Below, piece after piece: positions 1-7,037 of a stretch of 7,037 nucleotides of DNA. Below the pieces are notes generated by a model. That model searched no databases and was not told the DNA's origin. It saw nothing but the letters and a program-made list of their open reading frames with translations. Numbering within the stretch: position 1 is the stretch's first letter; every line of letters begins with the position of its first letter. The DNA is from Candidatus Gallimonas intestinigallinarum. Its GTDB lineage: Bacteria > Bacillota_A > Clostridia > Christensenellales > Borkfalkiaceae. Where the stretch lies: the NCBI GenBank assembly GCA_019116405.1, contig DXBS01000091.1, positions 1-7,037 on the forward strand. Direction: 5' to 3'. Made by a program: the position numbers and the translations under genes.

Positions 1-975
1 CTTGCGGACGGCACGGTCATCCGCCAGGTCCTCGGAAAGTTCGAGGACATTCAATCCGACCCCAACGCCTTCCGGGGGCTTCCGACGGGCTTCAAGCACC
101 TGGACCGCATCACCAACGGCCTGCAAAAATCCGACCTCATCGTCATCGCGGCGCGCCCCGGCATGGGCAAGACGTCGCTCTCGATGAACATCGTGGAGAA
201 CGTCTGTCTCAACAACAGCAAGACGGCGGCGGTGTTCTCGCTGGAAATGCCGCGCAGTCAGATCGTGCAGCGTCTTTTGTGCGCGCATGCGGGTGTCAGT
301 ATGGAAAAGGCGCTCTCCGGTCAGCTCAATCAGAAGGAGTGGCGCAATCTGATGGTTGCGAGCGACAAACTGCAGCGCAGCAAGGTCTTTATCGACGACT
401 CCTCCCGCGTGACGCCCGCGGAGATCTTGTCCAAATGCCGCCGCCTCGCCGCGGCGGAGGGCGGGCTCGATCTCATCATGATCGACTATATCCAGCTCAT
501 GGGCGGCGTCGGCGGCAAGGGCGGCGGCTCGTTTGAGAACCGTCAGCAGGAGATCGCGTCCATCACGCGCGATCTCAAGATCATGGCAAAGGAACTGGAC
601 GTGCCCGTCATCGCGCTCTCGCAGCTCAGGCGTATTCAGACCAAGGAACCGCAGCTCTCCGACCTGAGGGAGTCGGGCGCAATCGAGCAGGACGCGGATA
701 TCGTCATGTTCATCAACCGCCCCGACGTCACCGCGACGGCGGAGGAGCTCGCCAAGCATACCATCGTCAAGGGCTCGGCGGAACTCATCCTCGCCAAGCA
801 CAGAAACGGCTCTCTTGGCAGAGTGCAGCTTCGGTTTCTTGGCGAACTCACCAAGTTCGTGGACGTGGATGATCAGAACATTTCGGACGAGGAGCCGCCG
901 CAGTTCGCGCCGCCGCCCGAGGACTACGGCGCCGCGTATGACGACGATGCGCCCTTTGACGGGGGCGAGGTATGA
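1..975 (+). CDS. dnaB: Replicative DNA helicase DnaB, 5'-truncated by window edge
   Basis: This is the RecA-like ATPase part of the hexameric helicase that unwinds DNA at the replication fork. The reading frame is open from base 1, so the gene starts upstream of the window; 324 residues are present against about 440-450 for a full protein. The N-terminal domain that contacts primase is missing and the linker is only partly present. Numbering from the fragment start, Walker A is ARPGMGKTS at 51-59 (Lys57, Thr58), Walker B is LIMIDYIQLM around Asp162, SQLRR is at 207-211, and the DLRESGAIEQDAD motif starts at 221. KHRNG follows near the end of the domain. The loop after SQL is shorter than the SQLSRAVEQR-type loop of many DnaB proteins. 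The last 30 residues are rich in Asp, Glu and Pro and look disordered. The stop overlaps the sua5 start (ATGA). The identification is secure. Confidence 0.97.
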   Translation, partial: LADGTVIRQVLGKFEDIQSDPNAFRGLPTGFKHLDRITNGLQKSDLIVIAARPGMGKTSLSMNIVENVCLNNSKTAAVFSLEMPRSQIVQRLLCAHAGVSMEKALSGQLNQKEWRNLMVASDKLQRSKVFIDDSSRVTPAEILSKCRRLAAAEGGLDLIMIDYIQLMGGVGGKGGGSFENRQQEIASITRDLKIMAKELDVPVIALSQLRRIQTKEPQLSDLRESGAIEQDADIVMFINRPDVTATAEELAKHTIVKGSAELILAKHRNGSLGRVQLRFLGELTKFVDVDDQNISDEEPPQFAPPPEDYGAAYDDDAPFDGGEV

Positions 976-1985
976 AGACGCAGATCTTACCTGTCTCGCC
1001 GCAGTCGCTTGCCTACGCCAAGGAGCTCATCCAAGCGGGCGAGGTCGTCGCCTTTCCCACCGAGACGGTGTACGGCCTCGGCGCCGATGCGCGCAACGAC
1101 GCGGCGGTCCAGAAAATTTTCGCGCTCAAGGGGCGCCCCGCCGACAATCCGCTCATCGCGCACGTCCATGCCGGGTTTGACATCACCGCTCTCGTGGAGA
1201 CGCCCGCCTATACGGCGCGGCTGCGGGAAAAATTCCTTCCCGGATCGCTGACCATGGTCTATCCGTCCAAGGGGAAGGTGAGCCGCTTTGTCTCCGGCGG
1301 GCTTCCCACGCTCTCCCTGCGCGTTCCGTCCTCTGCGGCGGCGCAGGCGTTTTTGCGGGCGGTGGATATCCCGATCGCCGCGCCCAGCGCCAACCGCTCC
1401 AAGCACGTCTCGCCCGTCACGGCGCAGCATGTCGCGGATGACTTTGACGGCGATATCCCGCTCATTCTCGACGGCGGTCCGTGTACGGGCGGCATCGAAA
1501 GTACGGTTTTAGACTGCACGGGCGCTGTCCCGGCCATCCTGCGCGCGGGGCTGGTGACGAGGGAGATGATCGCGGCGGAAGTGGGAGCGTGCGAGGTCTA
1601 TGTCCCGCACGAGGGGGAAAAGCCCAAGAGTCCCGGCATGGCGTACAAGCACTATGCGCCCTCCTGCCGCACCGCGTTTTTTACGGAGGGAGAGGCGGAT
1701 CAGGCGATCCGATGCTACCTTGCCGAGCAGGGCAGGGGCGGAACGCCGTACTTTCTCTGCGAACACAGCTTTTTGGCGGCACATCCCGAGTATCGCGCGC
1801 TCGATCTGGGCGGGACGCCCGAGGAGATGGCGGCGCGGCTGTATGCTCACCTTCGCACGGGCGAGCGCTGCGCGACGCTGCTGATCGGGATCGAACCTGC
1901 GCTGAGCGGCGGCGTCATGGTCGGCGTCAAGAACCGCCTGCTGCGCGCGTTCGGGCGCTCCGAGATCAGGGAAAAGGATGTCTGA
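972..1985 (+). CDS. ywlC: L-threonylcarbamoyladenylate synthase (Sua5/YwlC type)
   Basis: The enzyme makes threonylcarbamoyl-AMP from threonine, bicarbonate and ATP. This is the first step of the t6A modification at position 37 of tRNAs that read ANN codons. At 337 residues it is the long Sua5 form, with a YrdC domain plus a C-terminal Sua5 domain. The YrdC domain covers about 10-195, with FPTETVYGLG at 28-37, KGRPADNPL at about 53-61, and a SAN-x-S/SP-x-TA segment in its second half. The linker motif SPGMAYKHYAP at 220-230 closes over the active site in this family. The start ATG overlaps the dnaB stop and has GGGGG at 961-965 as a Shine-Dalgarno site, so translation is probably coupled to dnaB. 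It is followed by ywlE and rpiB, the same order as in B. subtilis. Function is certain from the motifs. Confidence 0.96.
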   Translation: MKTQILPVSPQSLAYAKELIQAGEVVAFPTETVYGLGADARNDAAVQKIFALKGRPADNPLIAHVHAGFDITALVETPAYTARLREKFLPGSLTMVYPSKGKVSRFVSGGLPTLSLRVPSSAAAQAFLRAVDIPIAAPSANRSKHVSPVTAQHVADDFDGDIPLILDGGPCTGGIESTVLDCTGAVPAILRAGLVTREMIAAEVGACEVYVPHEGEKPKSPGMAYKHYAPSCRTAFFTEGEADQAIRCYLAEQGRGGTPYFLCEHSFLAAHPEYRALDLGGTPEEMAARLYAHLRTGERCATLLIGIEPALSGGVMVGVKNRLLRAFGRSEIREKDV

Positions 1986-1995
1986 CGGGGGACGT

Positions 1996-2448
1996 ATGAA
2001 ATACAGGAAGATCATCTTCGTCTGTACGGGCAATACCTGCCGCTCGCCGATGGCGGAGGCGGTGTTCAGAGCGGAGCTGAAAAAACAAAAGATCCGTTGG
2101 TATAAGATATCGTCCGCGGGGCTGCGCGCTACCGCGGGAGCGCCGATGTCGGAAAACAGCAAGGCAGTGCTGACGGAGGCGGGCATCGCGTTTTCGCCCG
2201 ACTTTCGTGCAAGGAGGCTGACGCAGAAGATGGTGGAGGACGCCTATGCCGTCGTCTGTATGACGTGGGAGCAGATGAAGCAGTTCGGCGGGGCGACCAA
2301 CGTCACCTGCATGTATGAACTTGCGGGAAGGGACATCCCCGACCCGTACGGACAGAGCATGGAGGTCTACCGCGCCACGCTGCGCGACATCTGTGAATGC
2401 GTGCCTGCGCTCATCCGCAAGCTGGAAATCAAAAATCAGACAAAATAA
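1996..2448 (+). CDS. ywlE: Low-molecular-weight phosphatase, probable protein arginine phosphatase YwlE
   Basis: A member of the low-molecular-weight tyrosine phosphatase fold, 150 residues. The P-loop CTGNTCRS lies at residues 10-17, with nucleophile Cys10 and phosphate-binding Arg16. The general acid is in DIPDPYG, Asp116. Thr14 sits where tyrosine phosphatases of this family usually carry Ile (CxGNICRS). In B. subtilis YwlE the equivalent Thr11 gives specificity for phosphoarginine, so removal of arginine phosphorylation from proteins (the mark used with McsB/ClpCP) is the better call. This rests on one residue plus gene order. I chose ATG 1996 because the family begins a few residues before the first strand, and GGGGGA at 1987-1992 precedes it, though only 3 nt away. 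An in-frame ATG at 1978, overlapping the sua5 end, would add MSDGGR and is a real alternative. Confidence 0.9.
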   Translation: MKYRKIIFVCTGNTCRSPMAEAVFRAELKKQKIRWYKISSAGLRATAGAPMSENSKAVLTEAGIAFSPDFRARRLTQKMVEDAYAVVCMTWEQMKQFGGATNVTCMYELAGRDIPDPYGQSMEVYRATLRDICECVPALIRKLEIKNQTK

Positions 2449-2471
2449 TAAAAAAATAGGGGGAAATCAAC

Positions 2472-2924
2472 ATGAAAATTGCAATTGCATGCGATCACGG
2501 CGGACTTGCACTCAAACAGGCGATCTGCACCTGGCTCTCGGAGAGCGGCTATGAAGTCGTCAATTTCGGCACGGACAGCGGCGCTTCCTGCGACTATCCC
2601 GACTTCGGCGTGAAGGCGGCGGAGGCGGTCGCCGCGGGCGCGTGCGACTACGGCATCGTCGTCTGCACGACGGGCATCGGCATCTCCATTGCGGCAAACA
2701 AGGTCAGGGGCGTGCGCTGCGCGCTCTGCTCCGAGCCGCTCTCTGCGAAGATGACCCGCCTGCACAACAACGCCAACGTGCTTGCCATGGGCGGCGGTAT
2801 GATCGGCGTCAACATGGGGCTGGAGATCGTCAGAACCTTTCTGGAGACGCCATTCTCCGAGGAGGGCAAGCACATCCGCCGCATCGATAAGATCGGCGAG
2901 ATCGAAAAAAAGTATATGAAATAA
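2472..2924 (+). CDS. rpiB: Ribose-5-phosphate isomerase B (RpiB/LacAB family)
   Basis: This enzyme interconverts ribose 5-phosphate and ribulose 5-phosphate in the pentose phosphate pathway; some family members act on allose 6-phosphate or, as LacA/LacB, galactose 6-phosphate. The 150-residue length is normal. CDHGG at 8-12 is the phosphate/substrate site, Cys65 in VVCTTGIGISIAANKV is the proton-transfer cysteine, and His98 in RLHNNANVL is the ring-opening histidine. The usual CGTG is CTTG here, a small variation. The start is clear: AGGGGGA at 2458-2464 is 7 nt before the ATG, within an AT-rich 23-nt gap, the only gap larger than a few bases in the gene string. The stop overlaps the next start (TAATG). 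The sua5-ywlE-rpiB order supports RpiB over LacA/LacB. Confidence 0.94.
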   Translation: MKIAIACDHGGLALKQAICTWLSESGYEVVNFGTDSGASCDYPDFGVKAAEAVAAGACDYGIVVCTTGIGISIAANKVRGVRCALCSEPLSAKMTRLHNNANVLAMGGGMIGVNMGLEIVRTFLETPFSEEGKHIRRIDKIGEIEKKYMK

Positions 2925-4453
2925 TGTTAAAGGCTCTCAAGGACAAATTACTTGAATCATTCACTTCCATCCTGCCCATTGCACTCATCGTGCTTGTGCT
3001 CAGCGTGGCGTTCGTGCCGCTGGAGACGGGGACCTTCCTGCTCTTTCTCATCGGCGTCTTTCTGCTCATCGTGGGGCTGGGCGGATTCATGCTGGGCGCG
3101 GACCTTTCCATGCTCGTCATCGGTGAGAAGATCGGTGCGACCATGACCCACTCGCGCAAGATCTGGCTGATCGCGCTGCTTTCCTTTGTCATCGGCATCA
3201 TCGTCACGATCGCCGAGCCCGATCTGCAGATTCTCGCCGAACAGGTGCCCGCCGTCGCGGAAAAGACGGTGCTCGGGAACTACCTGCTCATCCTCACGGT
3301 CGCCGTGGGCGTGGGAATTTTCCTGATGATCGGCATGCTGCGCATCGTGCTGCGCATCCCGCTGCACTATCTGCTCATCGTGTTCTATGTCGTGGCGTTT
3401 GTGCTGAGCATTTTTGTCTCGCCCGATTTCTGGGCGGTGTCCTTTGACTCGGGCGGCGTGACGACCGGGCCGATGACCGTGCCGTTTATCATGTCGCTTG
3501 GCGTGGGCGTTGCGTCCATCCGCAGCGGCAAGGGCAGCAAGGACGATTCCTTCGGTCTCGTCGCGCTCTCCAGCGTCGGGCCCATCATCGCCGTGCTCAT
3601 CCTCGGAATCGTGTTCGATCTGCACGACGTGGAGTACGTCATGACGCCCCTGACGCAGGTTTCGGACACGCGCGAGGTGTTCTTCGCCTATCTGCAGGGA
3701 TTTGGCAGTTGCGCAGAGGAAGTTGCGATCGCCCTTGCGCCAATTCTTGCCTTCTTTATCCTGTTCCAGATCGTGGCGCGCGCCTTCCGTCGGCGCCAGA
3801 TCGTACGTATTCTGGTCGGGTTCGTGTACACCTTTGTCGGGCTGACGCTGTTCTTATCGGGCGCAAACGTCGGCTTTATGCCCGTCGGCAGGACGATCGG
3901 GCAGGGGCTTGCCTCCCTGTGGGGTGGCTGGCTGCTCATTCCCGTCGGCATGATCATCGGCTACTTCGTCGTCGCAGCGGAGCCCGCCGTGCACGTCCTC
4001 AACAAGCAGGTCGAGCGCATGAGCGCGGGCGCGATCAGCTCTTCCGCCATGATGAAGGGGCTGTGCATCGGCGTCTGTATCTCCCTGGGACTCGCCATGA
4101 CGCGCATCCTCACGGGCATCAATATCATGTGGATCCTCGTTCCCGGCTACGTCATCGCGCTTGTGCTGACCTTCTTCACGCCGCCGCTGTTTACGGGCAT
4201 TGCGTTCGACTCGGGCGGCGTCGCGAGCGGCGCGATGGTCTCCGCATTCGTCCTGCCGCTCGCCATCGGCGCATGCAGCGTGCTCGATCCCACGGCGATC
4301 ATGACGCAGGCGTTCGGCTGCGTCGCCTTCGTTGCGCTCACGCCGCTCATCTCCATTCAGATCCTCGGCATCCACTACAAGCGCAAGACGGGCAGGATCA
4401 GGCGCAACTTCTCCAACGTCGGGGACAGGATCCTGGAGTACGAGGTGAGCTGA
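2924..4453 (+). CDS. DUF1538 family integral membrane protein, two homologous halves (putative transporter)
   Basis: A very hydrophobic protein of 509 residues with many predicted membrane helices and no cleavable signal peptide. I recognise it as DUF1538, a family without an established substrate. It is an internal duplication. GADLSM...GEKIG at 58 matches GANVGF...GRTIG at 313. AEPDLQILAEQV at 97 matches AEPAVHVLNKQV at 352. FDSGGVTTGPM at 174 matches FDSGGVASGAM at 428. The offset is 255, 255 and 254 residues. Paired acidic motifs (AEP and FDSGG) lying between helices are what one would expect of ion- or substrate-binding re-entrant segments in a two-fold pseudosymmetric transporter; that role is inference. 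There is no clear Shine-Dalgarno, and the ATG shares one base with the rpiB stop, so translation probably depends on coupling. The PII-like gene starts 1 nt after the stop, suggesting that the two proteins work together. Confidence 0.88.
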   Translation: MLKALKDKLLESFTSILPIALIVLVLSVAFVPLETGTFLLFLIGVFLLIVGLGGFMLGADLSMLVIGEKIGATMTHSRKIWLIALLSFVIGIIVTIAEPDLQILAEQVPAVAEKTVLGNYLLILTVAVGVGIFLMIGMLRIVLRIPLHYLLIVFYVVAFVLSIFVSPDFWAVSFDSGGVTTGPMTVPFIMSLGVGVASIRSGKGSKDDSFGLVALSSVGPIIAVLILGIVFDLHDVEYVMTPLTQVSDTREVFFAYLQGFGSCAEEVAIALAPILAFFILFQIVARAFRRRQIVRILVGFVYTFVGLTLFLSGANVGFMPVGRTIGQGLASLWGGWLLIPVGMIIGYFVVAAEPAVHVLNKQVERMSAGAISSSAMMKGLCIGVCISLGLAMTRILTGINIMWILVPGYVIALVLTFFTPPLFTGIAFDSGGVASGAMVSAFVLPLAIGACSVLDPTAIMTQAFGCVAFVALTPLISIQILGIHYKRKTGRIRRNFSNVGDRILEYEVS

Positions 4454-4454
4454 C

Positions 4455-5273
4455 ATGGCGGACAAAAGACAGACAAAATCATCGGTGCGCGCGGGCGGCA
4501 TCGCCAATGTACTCGGCGGAACGCCGATCGCCAACATGCTCGGCATGCGGCAGGGCGGAAAGCTTCCCAACCGCGTCAAGCTGCTCGTGAGCATCGTCAA
4601 TAAAAACGATATCGAACGGCTCAAAGAGGTCATCGACGACTGCTCCGTGTCGCTCACGGTCGCATTTGCGGGGACGGGGACGGCACATTCGCAGGTCCTG
4701 GATTATCTCGGGATCGGCGAGACGGAAAAGACGGTGGCGTTCTCCCTCATCCCGGAGAGCGACGAGGACCTGATCATGCGCGAGATCCGCACAAAGATCT
4801 CCCTCTATCTTGTGGGCCGCGGCATCTCCTTTACCGTCCCTCTGACGGGGATCTCGGAGATCGTCGCAAACGGAATTACGGGCGCCGCGTCGGAAAAGGC
4901 GGTGGACGGGAGTAAGATCATGACAAGCGAGACGAGACAATACGACCTCATCATTGCGGCGGTCGCCGCGGGGTTTGTGGACGAGGCAATGGAGGCGGCG
5001 CGCGGCGCAGGCGCGGCGGGCGGCACCATCATCCACGCGCACGCGCTCAACAACACCAAGGCAGAGCAATTCATCGGCGTCTCTCTTTTAGAGGAGCGCG
5101 ACCTGTTGCTCATTCTCACCAAGCGGGAGGGGAAGCTGCCCATCATGCAGGCGCTCTTTGACAGCGTCGGGCTCAAGACGCAGGCGGGAGGCATCATCTT
5201 TTCGCTGCCCGTCGATAAGACGGCGGGGATCTCCGCCTCGGACGAGGTGGCGGCAGAGGAGGCGAATCAGTGA
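4455..5273 (+). CDS. Tandem PII-like nitrogen-regulatory-type protein (two PII domains)
   Basis: A soluble protein of 272 residues holding two PII/GlnB-like domains. Domain 1 spans about 39-135 and contains GTGTAHSQVLDYLGIGETEK at 73-92. Domain 2 spans about 163-262 and contains GAAGGTIIHAHALNN from about 186, then GVSLLEERDLLLIL and a GLKTQAGGIIFSLPVD end. PII proteins are usually about 110-residue single domains forming trimers that bind ATP/ADP and often gate a membrane transporter through the T-loop. Here the T-loop region is short and differs from GlnB, so it belongs to a divergent PII-like branch. Residues 1-38 form a basic Gly-rich extension with a small repeat, IANVLG at 16-21 and IANMLG at 25-30. 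GAGGTGA at 4440s (4442-4448) lies 6 nt before the ATG. Position directly after the DUF1538 gene suggests regulation of that protein. Ligand unknown. Confidence 0.85.
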   Translation: MADKRQTKSSVRAGGIANVLGGTPIANMLGMRQGGKLPNRVKLLVSIVNKNDIERLKEVIDDCSVSLTVAFAGTGTAHSQVLDYLGIGETEKTVAFSLIPESDEDLIMREIRTKISLYLVGRGISFTVPLTGISEIVANGITGAASEKAVDGSKIMTSETRQYDLIIAAVAAGFVDEAMEAARGAGAAGGTIIHAHALNNTKAEQFIGVSLLEERDLLLILTKREGKLPIMQALFDSVGLKTQAGGIIFSLPVDKTAGISASDEVAAEEANQ

Positions 5274-5953
5274 AGCGTGTGATCTGTATCGGCGGGGGAG
5301 AGATTAGGAACCGCGAGACGCTCACGATCGATGCCTATATCGCAGGCGAGGCGAAAAAGGCGGCGGGCGAGCGGCGCGCCTGCGGGCTCTTTCTTCCCAC
5401 CGCCAGCCATGACTGCATGCCCTATTATAATTCCTTTCATAAGATCTACACCGGTCTGTTCGATATCAAGACGGACGTCGCGCTCACCGTCCGACAGGAC
5501 TTTGACCGCGAGAAGATGAAGGCCAAGTTTGAACGCGCCGACTTTCTCTATGTGGGCGGCGGAGACACTGTCTTTATGATCGAGCATTGGAAAAAGTCGG
5601 GGCTTTTAGAGTATATCCGCGAAGCGTATGAGCGCGGCGTGCTCATTGCGGGGCTCTCTGCCGGGGCGATCTGCTGGTTTGAGGACATGTATTCCGATTC
5701 GGTCGTGGAGGGAGAATATCAGATGTTTCCCGGACTTGGCTGGCTGAAAGGAAAAATTTCTCCACATTACAACGAAAGAATGCTTGACTTTGACGAAATA
5801 GTGTTGTATAATAGGTTTCGCGCTTGGGGCATTGAGAACGATGCGGCGCTGGAGTTTGCAGACGGTGAGCCCGTCAGAACGATCGGCGGCGGCAAGGTAT
5901 ATGACCTTGATGCAACGAGCGGAACGCTGGAAAAGAGTGTTTTTTCGGCGTAA
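5270..5953 (+). CDS. Peptidase E-like S51 family hydrolase
   Basis: A 227-residue cytoplasmic protein of the S51 / class I glutamine-amidotransferase-like fold, the family of Salmonella dipeptidase E (Asp-X dipeptides) and cyanophycinase. The nucleophile elbow is GLSAGA with Ser130, the catalytic histidine is probably His166 in SPHYNE, and YVGGGDT around Asp99 is the conserved loop before the nucleophile. The third triad member is uncertain; Asp143 lies near the spacing seen in PepE (Ser120/Asp135/His157). It starts with GTG at 5270, which overlaps the previous stop (GTGA), and AGAGGAGG at 5255-5262 is an excellent ribosome binding site with 7-nt spacing. Substrate cannot be read from sequence, so I give no pepE symbol. 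Its link to the PII-like/DUF1538 pair may be functional or only positional. A promoter is embedded in its last third. Confidence 0.85.
   Translation: MKRVICIGGGEIRNRETLTIDAYIAGEAKKAAGERRACGLFLPTASHDCMPYYNSFHKIYTGLFDIKTDVALTVRQDFDREKMKAKFERADFLYVGGGDTVFMIEHWKKSGLLEYIREAYERGVLIAGLSAGAICWFEDMYSDSVVEGEYQMFPGLGWLKGKISPHYNERMLDFDEIVLYNRFRAWGIENDAALEFADGEPVRTIGGGKVYDLDATSGTLEKSVFSA
5784..5812 (+). promoter_or_regulatory. Sigma-A-type promoter inside the peptidase gene, probably for tRNA-Leu
   Basis: TTGACT at 5784-5789 and TATAAT at 5807-5812 are separated by exactly 17 nt, so five of six and six of six bases match the consensus. Initiation would be near 5819, about 143 nt upstream of the tRNA. The coding sequence across it uses ATA, TTG and AGG codons, which are rare elsewhere in this GC-rich window, as if the DNA were constrained by promoter function. 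No other good promoter lies between it and the tRNA. Confidence 0.75.
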
Positions 5954-5961
5954 CCAAATAA

Positions 5962-6044
5962 GCGGACGTGGCGAAATTGGCAGACGCGCAGGTTTCAGGT
6001 TCCTGTGGGAGACCATGGGGGTTCAAGTCCCTTCGTCCGCACCA
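5962..6044 (+). tRNA. tRNA-Leu (anticodon CAG), CCA encoded
   Basis: A class II tRNA of 83 nt. The acceptor arm pairs GCGGACG at 5962-5968 with CGTCCGC at 6034-6040, followed by discriminator A6041 and an encoded CCA at 6042-6044. The anticodon loop reads TTCAGGT, giving CAG with G37, closed by CAGG/CCTG plus a T-T apposition at 31:39. A variable arm with a TGG/CCA stem and GAGA loop, typical of leucine tRNAs, comes before the T-arm, which has the loop TTCAAGT and stem GGGGG/CCCTT with two G-T pairs. It reads CUG codons, which are abundant in the neighbouring genes. The gene starts 8 nt after the peptidase stop and is followed directly by a terminator. Confidence 0.96.
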
Positions 6045-6111
6045 AACAAAAAACGGAGCAGTAAGCTCCGTTTTTTTGTTTGGTATAAAGTAGACTCACG
6101 AAGGGACTTGA
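6023..6111. repeat. Inverted repeat: tRNA T-arm and its reverse-complement copy flanking the terminator
   Basis: TCAAGTCCCTTCGT at 6023-6036, in the tRNA T-loop and acceptor, recurs as its exact reverse complement ACGAAGGGACTTGA at 6098-6111. Together with the terminator palindrome (6041-6084) this forms a composite inverted repeat centred at about 6062, with unpaired spacers of 4 nt on the left and 13 nt on the right. The right copy has no acceptor complement and is not a tRNA gene. Origin is unknown; inverted duplication or a repeat associated with tRNA ends are both possible. Confidence 0.8.
6048..6077 (+). terminator. Rho-independent terminator after tRNA-Leu, palindromic on both strands
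   Basis: The hairpin CGGAGC (6054-6059), loop AGTAA, GCTCCG (6065-6070) is followed by seven T, and six A precede it. The palindrome goes on outwards: ACCAAAC at 6041-6047 pairs with GTTTGGT at 6078-6084, making about 19 pairs with one bulge. It therefore could act in both directions. The outer arm includes the tRNA discriminator and CCA end. Confidence 0.92.
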
Positions 6112-6138
6112 GGGTGGAGGCGCGAGCGTCCGACATGA

Positions 6139-6760
6139 GCAAGGAATGAGCTCTATGCGCTGTACGACGAAAAGACGGACCAAGGCACCTCGCTGCACGG
6201 CAAGGCGGCGGAATTTGAGGGCGACTGCGTGGGCATCCCCGCAACGACGGCGGTGACCTATCTGACGGTTGCCGAGGGGACGGCGTTCAAAAACGTCTCC
6301 GGAAGCTCGGATGACCCCATGCCTGCGGGCAGCCCCACCTGGCTTTCGCTGCTCGTCGGACATTCGGAGACTGCGTGCTGCTGCACGGACGGGTATTTCT
6401 ATATCGACGGACTGTATTTCCCGGGCGAAAAGGGGAAGTTTGTATATAAAAACGACGAGCCGAAGTTCTGCGACCATATCAATCCCGCCTATGGCGGCGC
6501 CATCGTCGGCGGACATATTTTGCTGGACGAGGACTCGGATCCGCATGTCGGAACAGGCGGGGACGTGTACCTGCTGCCCATTTGCCAGACGCACAACATC
6601 TCGTTATAATCCCAATCACAACAAAGAGATCGGACAGGGCATGGGATTTTATATGGTGACGTCCAAAGATGTGGGTGCGGCAAAACTCGTAGGGTACCTG
6701 CGTGCCTCTGTCATTGCGGAGGCGCTCGCCCGCGAAGAGGAACGCGCCCGCGGCGATTAA
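6139..6760 (+). pseudogene. Frameshifted remnant of an unrecognised protein gene
   Basis: From 6139 a natural-looking protein reads in frame 1 (ELYALYDEKT...), through YFYIDGLYFPGEKGK and GGDVYLLPICQTHN, to a stop at 6607-6609. The next frame then continues smoothly as YNPNHNKEIGQG...GAAKLVGYLRA and stops at 6758-6760. Removing one T from the TT at 6604-6605 joins them as THNISYNPNHNKE. At the front there is no good start: ATG 6135 reads MSKE then a stop, and removing T6147 would join it to ELYALYDEK. It has no ribosome site at a usable distance, so 5' truncation is equally possible. About 205 residues would result. I do not recognise the family. GGHIL followed by LPICQTHN recalls the His/Cys spacing of HNH-like folds, but only weakly. 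Sequencing error is an alternative to decay. Confidence 0.6.
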
Positions 6761-6879
6761 TAGTTTCTCAAAAGAGGCCTCAGGCAGTTGCTTGCAAGAT
6801 TCGTGCTGCTCCGCCGCGGGCGGACCGCGCGCCGATCAAAAATTTTTTTTGAGAAGGCGCGGCAATGGGCGCGGAACGA
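6761..6879. other. Intergenic spacer with a 9-bp inverted repeat and GC-rich core
   Basis: I see no gene here. TTCTCAAAA at 6765-6773 and TTTTGAGAA at 6847-6855 are exact inverted repeats enclosing a GC-rich core with small possible hairpins (CCGCC/GGCGG at 6811-6823, or CGCGG/CCGCG at 6815-6829) and the palindromes GAGGCCTC (6774-6781) and CTTGCAAG (6791-6798). The tract of A5T8 at 6838-6850 does not directly follow a strong stem, so a classical terminator cannot be claimed, though this is where one would be expected. Confidence 0.4.
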
Positions 6880-6908
6880 TTGACGAAGGGGGCACAATCG
6901 TGTATAAT
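6880..6908 (+). promoter_or_regulatory. Sigma-A-type promoter for a gene beyond the right edge
   Basis: TTGACG at 6880-6885, a 17-nt spacer, and TATAAT at 6903-6908 match the consensus at eleven of twelve positions. Initiation is expected near 6915. It lies in intergenic DNA and points towards the leader and ribosome binding site at the window end. Confidence 0.85.
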
Positions 6909-6914
6909 GGTAAT

Positions 6915-7037
6915 TAAGCGCATTCGATGAAGAGGGGGACTTGCCGTCGGCTATGAAGCGGGCGGCGCAGCATCGGTGCGTGCTGGTACCGGAATAGCGC
7001 GTTCATTTCACGCAGAAGATAACACTTTAGGAGAAGG
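6915..7037 (+). ncRNA. Structured 5' leader RNA, class not recognised (candidate cis-regulator)
   Basis: The transcript from the promoter above has a leader of at least 120 nt. GCGCATTC at 6918-6925 can pair with GAATAGCGC at 6992-7000 (one bulged A), enclosing two hairpins: TGCCGTC at 6942-6948 with GGCGGCG at 6961-6967, and CGGTGC at 6974-6979 with GTACCG at 6986-6991. This is a three-way junction with a purine-rich joining strand (6926-6941). The helices were found by eye without energy calculation. It does not match a riboswitch consensus I know. It is followed by 28 nt of unpaired-looking sequence and the ribosome site. Confidence 0.45.
7029..7037 (+). promoter_or_regulatory. Ribosome binding site of a gene starting beyond the window
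   Basis: AGGAGAAGG at the very end is a strong Shine-Dalgarno sequence, so a start codon is expected within about ten bases past the window edge. It belongs to the transcript started at the 6880-6908 promoter. The encoded gene is unknown. Confidence 0.7.

Follow-up and report, generated by a model that had tools for sequence, protein, structure and literature searches.

We analyzed a 7,037-nucleotide stretch of DNA from Candidatus Gallimonas intestinigallinarum (contig DXBS01000091.1, positions 1 to 7,037; hereafter the window), in which a gene for a DUF1538-DUF1538 membrane protein of 509 amino acids (2924..4453, + strand) is followed, after a gap of one base, by a gene for a tandem PII-like protein of 272 amino acids (4455..5273, + strand). 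The pair lies in a run of genes all on the + strand, which comprises the end of a dnaB-like helicase gene, a Sua5-like gene, a low-molecular-weight phosphatase gene, rpiB, the DUF1538 gene, the PII-like gene, a peptidase S51/cyanophycinase-like gene, and a tRNA-Leu gene. An earlier reading of the sequence, referred to here as the original prediction, had taken the two proteins for a duplicated transporter or channel of unknown substrate and its dedicated, nucleotide-sensing and likewise duplicated PII-like regulator. The one-base gap, the two PII-fold domains in the 4455-5273 product, and the internal duplication of the membrane protein were all confirmed; the two DUF1538 halves align with 30% identity (E = 1e-28) at an offset of 255 residues.

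The membrane protein was assigned from Pfam and NCBIfam. It belongs to Pfam DUF1538 (PF07556), which it matches in two stretches with 452.7 bits against a gathering threshold of 22.6. The N-terminal half (residues 19-230; 2978..3613, + strand) is the best Pfam stretch, and the C-terminal half (approximately residues 274-485; 3743..4378, + strand) was placed by the 255-residue offset. The NCBIfam models for UmpA and UmpB (NF041627 and NF041628) also match in two stretches each, reaching 176.5 bits (UmpA) and 125 bits (UmpB), far short of the respective equivalog cut-offs of 490 and 500; we describe the protein as an UmpA/UmpB-like antiporter core, filing it not as UmpAB but only as working like it. 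Fused N-terminal halves are closer to the first genes of split DUF1538 pairs (UmpA-like; median identity 38% versus 30%) and fused C-terminal halves to the second genes (UmpB-like; 39% versus 31%), with medians taken pairwise over every third row. According to the UmpAB paper, UmpA and UmpB of Halomonas zhaodongensis are DUF1538 proteins encoded by overlapping genes that form a hetero-dimer, with seven spans predicted per unit, and confer pH-dependent Na+(Li+,K+)/H+ antiport as well as salt and alkali tolerance on E. coli KNabc (PMC5484666). A substrate has been published for a DUF1538 pair, and in this respect the original prediction needs to be amended.

Two acidic positions stand out when 267 DUF1538 halves and solo proteins are aligned. 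E98 of the window protein, in an AEP motif (3215..3217, + strand; counterpart E353 at 3980-3982), occupies column 102, which is Glu in 94% of these sequences, and D175, in an FDSGG motif (3446..3448, + strand; counterpart D429 at 4208-4210), occupies column 178, which is Asp in 96%. These residues bear on a somewhat unlikely alternative, in which a PII-like protein acts on a DUF1538 transporter just as we propose below, but the substrate of DUF1538 in these Clostridia is another ion or metabolite rather than Na+, K+, or H+. The distance of the window protein from the UmpA and UmpB cut-offs would fit such a difference, as would the fact that antiport has been demonstrated for a single Halomonas pair in the portions of the literature covered. 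Retention of one acidic residue in each of the two motifs argues against it, as do the related PII genes that adjoin transporters of the CitMHS type and of the CPA type (Na+/H+ exchangers), described below, and the proposal, in the excerpts covered, that UmpAB homologues serve salt adaptation in cable bacteria.

Loop charge suggests opposite membrane orientations for the two DUF1538 halves, which would make them an inverted repeat. Hydropathy was used to place seven hydrophobic segments per half in the 267-row alignment, and Lys and Arg residues were counted in the loops on each side; the AlphaFold model shows additional short helices. The window protein has 10 versus 1 such residues in its N-terminal half, whose N-terminus is predicted to be cytosolic, and 2 versus 12 in its C-terminal half, which is predicted to be inverted. 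The same holds across the family: fused N-terminal halves have 8.0 versus 1.7 per side, in the same direction in 70 of 70 proteins, and fused C-terminal halves 2.2 versus 10.4, in the opposite direction in 70 of 70. First genes of split pairs show 5.5 versus 2.4 (51 of 55 in one direction, with three ties and one reversed) and second genes 3.1 versus 8.7 (56 of 56 in the other direction). This opposite charge, together with the positive-inside rule, is why we consider the halves inverted. A weakness of the result is that segment borders were fixed after the charge table had been inspected; the orientation is supported by the seven spans per unit of the UmpAB paper and by the size of the effect. 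Since 14 spans are predicted and the N-terminus is predicted to be cytosolic, the C-terminus would be cytosolic too, which is the location required of a PII domain fused to it.

Solo DUF1538 proteins are near balance (4.5 versus 5.4; three in one direction, five ties, and eight in the other, n = 16) and, by their loop charge, look like dual-topology proteins. Passages of a review on inverted topology describe a small charge bias as typical of dual-topology candidates; those passages do not mention DUF1538 (PMC3962082). They also describe how, within the DUF606 family, single genes, oppositely oriented pairs, and fused genes occur side by side (Lolkema 2008, via PMC3962082). The solo, paired, and fused forms of DUF1538 make up the same series and, with their matching charge bias, provide a new case for the evolution of inverted-repeat transporters.

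The tandem PII-like protein was assigned from a structure model, PDB fold matches, and homologues, of which there are 737 at E <= 0.001 (the best 120 of the 737 are listed). The model (pLDDT, a per-residue confidence score, of 72.6) and its PDB matches indicate a PII-type fold in each domain. The first PII/CutA-fold domain spans residues 39-146 (4569..4892, + strand) and has CutA1 as its nearest fold; the second PII-fold domain spans residues 161-264 (4935..5246, + strand). Neither BLAST nor hhalign gave a significant alignment of the two halves with each other. Against Pfam P-II the window protein scores 18.6 bits, below the gathering threshold of 25, and the threshold is passed by all nine DUF1538-linked relatives scanned (25.3 to 55.3 bits) and by P0281, a single-chain fusion described below (35.9 bits). 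Both its fold and its relatives place the 4455-5273 product in the PII superfamily, as the original prediction had it, even though by itself the window protein stays under the Pfam cut-off. Its B-loop is not that of classical PII proteins (GlnB/GlnK). The basic residue that follows GxG in these (K90) is replaced by a hydrophobic residue in the PII subfamily alignment, and the corresponding motifs in the window protein are GRGIS and AGGII. The same position is Arg or Lys in the four PDB alignments compared. Residues of the glycine-rich loop remain conserved in the subfamily. Nucleotide sensing, part of the original prediction, is only a possibility.

We surveyed the linkage of the two families in 398 genomes of one phylum and a few plasmids. 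The PII subfamily profile was seeded with relatives of the window protein, broadened by hits from the survey itself, and applied to the genomes at E < 1e-15; Pfam provided an independent check on nine proteins. DUF1538 occurs in 139 of the 398 genomes, and the PII subfamily was found in 137 of these 139, compared with two of the 259 genomes lacking DUF1538. In the two DUF1538 genomes without the subfamily, the gene is cut by a contig end (G313) or is a pseudogene (G065). Of the two that have the subfamily and lack DUF1538, one (G058) contains only a partial PII-type gene. After 14 contig-end clusters and two short fragments had been dropped, 139 clusters could be assessed, a number that matches the number of genomes by coincidence; the cluster survey misses second clusters in some genomes, four of which were found later (L216-L219). 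By script, a PII gene adjoins DUF1538 in 134 of these 139 clusters.

The five remaining clusters were read individually. The PII open reading frame overlaps too far for the script in L137; L202 represents one fragment of a broken pair, and the PII gene accompanies the other fragment; and L206 is partly masked. In L211, from G065, the DUF1538 gene is a pseudogene interrupted by several in-frame stops, and a PII gene was not found in its vicinity. L113 (3837-5336) is the sole intact fused DUF1538 gene without a nearby PII gene, and its genome carries a double PII gene on another contig (L220, 3892-4614). On reading, then, two clusters (L113 and the pseudogene L211) are truly without an adjacent PII gene.

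Plasmids show the same arrangement. Nine plasmid records contain DUF1538, and in all seven that were examined a PII gene is adjacent, recognized by annotation in Vescimonas, Peptoclostridium, and Paraclostridium and by profile in Acetoanaerobium and Subdoligranulum. In Peptoclostridium acidaminophilum DSM 3953, the DUF1538 protein is WP_025436966.1 and the P-II protein WP_025436965.1. Plasmids of the alphaproteobacteria Chelativorans and Methylocystis, the only ones found by plasmid searches outside Clostridia, carry split DUF1538 genes followed by a "P-II family nitrogen regulator". In addition, human-gut records labeled "Bacteriophage sp." encode the PII protein (L160 = MT835770.1, H11-H13), and L160 encodes DUF1538 as well; that record carries the label UNVERIFIED and could be a contig of bacterial origin.

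The conserved genetic linkage by which PII-regulated transporter pairs are recognized is found here, and the near-universal adjacency within this sample, together with the fold, the relatives, and the fusions described below, supports the original prediction of a transporter with a dedicated PII-superfamily partner. It is highly improbable that the PII-like protein instead acts elsewhere, in nitrogen or carbon metabolism, and is merely co-transcribed with DUF1538. Abstracts of the PII literature do list many soluble targets, but co-transcription alone would hardly explain either the disparity between genomes with and without DUF1538 or the natural fusions. Classical nitrogen regulation was also considered at the locus itself: by their Pfam matches, the seven window proteins scanned include no nitrogen-metabolism enzyme, the nearest to one being the cyanophycinase-like S51 peptidase.

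Two neighboring genes abut the pair. The rpiB-like gene (2472..2924, + strand; Pfam LacAB_rpiB) has one base of its TAA stop in common with the DUF1538 ATG, and the peptidase S51/cyanophycinase-like gene (5270..5953, + strand; Pfam Peptidase_S51, 111 bits) overlaps the PII stop by 4 bases. Because of the shared base, the one-base gap, and the 4-base overlap, the four genes probably form one transcript. The entire run, rpiB and the S51 gene included, is retained in nine of nine close relatives (L001-L009). Among 11 more distant loci, in the stretches fetched, DUF1538 is present in all 11 and PII in eight by tblastn and in L153, L155, and L157 by profile; the window's other genes are retained in none. 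We rejected rpiB and the S51 peptidase as parts of the system on this basis. The unit consists of DUF1538 and PII, and the rpiB-like and S51 genes are neighbors outside it. Past the tRNA-Leu gene, the open reading frames at 6229-6606 and 6269-6757 have no Pfam match, and window positions 6100-7037 are possibly degraded or noncoding sequence.

The original prediction took both partners to have been fused and suggested counting whether they are single or duplicated together. Raw counts look strong in this regard. Among 58 clusters with fused DUF1538, 57 have at least two PII domains (one double PII gene in 53, two single genes in two, and an upstream double gene plus a PII domain on the transporter in two), one has none, and none has one single PII only. 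The 58 split pairs are accompanied by one single PII gene (32), one double (16), two singles (nine), or none (one). Solo DUF1538 genes (20) have a single PII gene downstream in 17 cases, one of which (L202) is the broken-pair piece mentioned above, and upstream in one case; the two without are both pieces. Three further DUF1538 clusters are broken. A FastTree phylogeny of 128 concatenated DUF1538-PII pairs, weak at its root, places DUF1538 fusion as one change and PII state changes at 12 or more. The correlation in copy number therefore cannot be claimed as repeated co-evolution. Concerted fusion of both proteins was rejected: the single DUF1538 fusion event on this tree gives one independent pair. 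The two fusions are not one joint event, and the 16 split pairs that carry a fused double PII likewise speak against joint fusion.

Some relatives carry both partners in a single chain. With the additional C-terminal segment of the L173 protein as query, 67 proteins were returned, comprising 65 with the order DUF-DUF-PII, one partial DUF-PII, and one with the order PII-PII-DUF-DUF-PII. The last of these, P0281 (837 amino acids), contains an antiporter and three PII domains in one chain. In L173 (3638-5494) and L183 (2922-4802), a double PII gene lies directly upstream of a DUF-DUF-PII fusion, so that in this branch each DUF1538 pair is matched by three PII domains, as many as make up a PII trimer. 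The term pseudo-dimer, used in the original prediction for both partners, fits the DUF1538 protein, where inverted repeat is the better description; it is tentative for PII proteins, which are known as trimers and which in some of these relatives contribute three domains per DUF1538 pair.

The P0281 model has a predicted template modeling score of 0.59, with the DUF1538 blocks mostly at pLDDT 77-93 and the first two PII domains under 70. A Foldseek search with it matched no part at E <= 0.001; PII-like chains fill most of the list, and the top PDB rows are SbtB chains (probability 1.00, E no better than 3.5e-3), including one from an SbtA-SbtB complex. The DUF1538 part gave no confident Foldseek match in the PDB, with poor long membrane-protein rows (probability 0.16-0.41), and a sequence search of the PDB with the window proteins yielded no useful outcome. 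The natural fusions make proximity of the two partners likely, not regulation.

Such fusions, together with the near-obligate linkage, could also be accommodated if the PII-like tandem were a fixed structural or assembly subunit rather than a ligand-controlled switch. The hydrophobic B-loop residue and the CutA1-like fold of the first domain would be in keeping with a role of this kind, which we nevertheless regard as unlikely: the residues of the glycine-rich loop are conserved, the PII subfamily also has members beside other transporters, and UmpAB was active in E. coli from a clone without a PII gene among its open reading frames as described in the main text of that paper. Activity of that clone fits a modulator, not a required subunit.

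Related PII genes adjoin other transporters at a few loci, found by following exceptions and not by the survey. At L213 (3858-5792), L214 (3994-5858), L215 (2328-4205), and L226 (1480-3203), a member of the PII subfamily adjoins a CitMHS/ArsB-like transporter gene on the same strand. The nearest NCBIfam model for these transporters, three of which were scanned, is MamN, below its cut-off, and the genome of L213 (G376) lacks DUF1538. Among the PII proteins at these loci, those of L213 (29.5 bits) and L214 (25.4 bits) pass the Pfam P-II threshold and that of L226 (23.4 bits) falls below it. At L225 only part of the transporter is seen. L222 (920-4050) has a single PII gene approximately 270 bases downstream of pntB, which encodes the beta subunit of a proton-translocating transhydrogenase, and the double PII genes of L220 and L221 have no such transporter partner that we recognized. 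At L253 (187-1824), the gene for a more distant P-II protein (31.6 bits) immediately precedes that for a CPA-type Na+/H+ exchanger (PF00999, 93.8 bits).

Because the PII subfamily pairs with both DUF1538 and CitMHS/MamN-like transporters, and another PII protein with a CPA-type exchanger, we tentatively entertain a broader reading in which PII-like proteins provide a general cytosolic control of monovalent-cation/proton exchange, with DUF1538 preserving the full evolutionary route from a dual-topology single gene through a pair and a fused inverted repeat to a chain of antiporter and three PII domains. This broader reading is possible, and we would not rate it as the likelier outcome; if it were true, pH and Na+/K+ balance would be coupled in cells to a metabolic signal.

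For the pair in the window, we consider it probable that an inverted-repeat, DUF1538 (UmpAB)-type cation/proton antiporter is controlled by a dedicated PII-like protein. This proposal draws on the domain content, fold class, linkage, fusions, and charge bias described here and on the published antiport by UmpAB; that members of this clade are antiporters, how they sit in the membrane, that PII docks on them, and which ligand acts with which sign are inferences. The UmpA-like and UmpB-like halves of the 509-residue chain would insert oppositely and make up one transporter, with 14 predicted spans and both ends cytosolic. The tandem PII-like protein would be cytosolic and bind the cytoplasmic face of the antiporter, where a bound small molecule, perhaps an adenine nucleotide or another metabolite, would decide whether the transport cycle is held or released, comparable to GlnK-AmtB and SbtB-SbtA. 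Passages of a 2023 review suggest that PII control is seemingly confined to transporters able to work as trimers (PMC10710835); by that rule, three DUF1538 pairs would be expected to assemble into a trimer here.

Several observations weigh against this proposal. The survey is limited in scope to one phylum and a few plasmids, and L113 has an intact fused DUF1538 gene without a nearby PII gene. Conversely, the PII subfamily is also represented at loci with no adjacent DUF1538 gene. PII has no occurrence in the main text of the UmpAB paper (PMC5484666), and it was not needed for activity there. The scores far under the UmpA and UmpB cut-offs mean that the substrate may differ, the B-loop lacks the classical basic residue, and the docking of PII is not readable from the P0281 model.

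If the proposal is correct, PII control would extend to pH and Na+/K+ balance, and many proteins annotated as "P-II family nitrogen regulator" would acquire a function, one possibly unrelated to nitrogen. The natural single-chain fusions make structure determination direct.

We compared the pair with known systems. Like UmpAB, it belongs to the DUF1538 family and combines an UmpA-like and an UmpB-like unit with seven predicted spans each; unlike UmpAB, which is encoded by two genes and for which the main text names no PII partner (PMC5484666), it has one fused transporter gene. GlnK-AmtB resembles it in that a PII-superfamily protein is encoded beside the transporter it is presumed to bind. 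The AmtB transporter is unrelated, however, and GlnK is a single-domain PII protein that inserts its T-loop, whereas here the PII protein is tandem or fused and has a different B-loop. SbtB-SbtA provides a PII-like partner of a Na+-coupled (bicarbonate) transporter, and SbtB chains are the top rows for the P0281 model. SbtA is not known to be related to DUF1538. SbtB differs in being a trimer, as stated in passages of the 2023 review (PMC10710835), that has been solved with AMP, cAMP, ADP, or ATP (PDB titles). Those passages list AmtB/Amt1, the Nrt and Urt ATP-binding cassette importers, and SbtA as PII-controlled transporters, and among these is no cation/proton antiporter (PMC10710835). DUF606 is similar in the coexistence of single, paired, and fused genes, and the opposite positive-inside bias expected of such a family was found for DUF1538; DUF606 is not known to be related to DUF1538 or to have a PII partner, and the DUF1538 orientation derives from charge only. 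Searches of the open-access literature, with subscription journals and preprints outside their scope, yielded no DUF1538/UmpAB-PII link, no tandem or fused PII forms of this kind, and no DUF1538 topology series. Pairs of PII proteins and transporters are already known; what appears to be new, within these searches, is the pairing of PII with a family of cation/proton antiporters, the tandem and fused forms of that partner, and the DUF1538 topology series.

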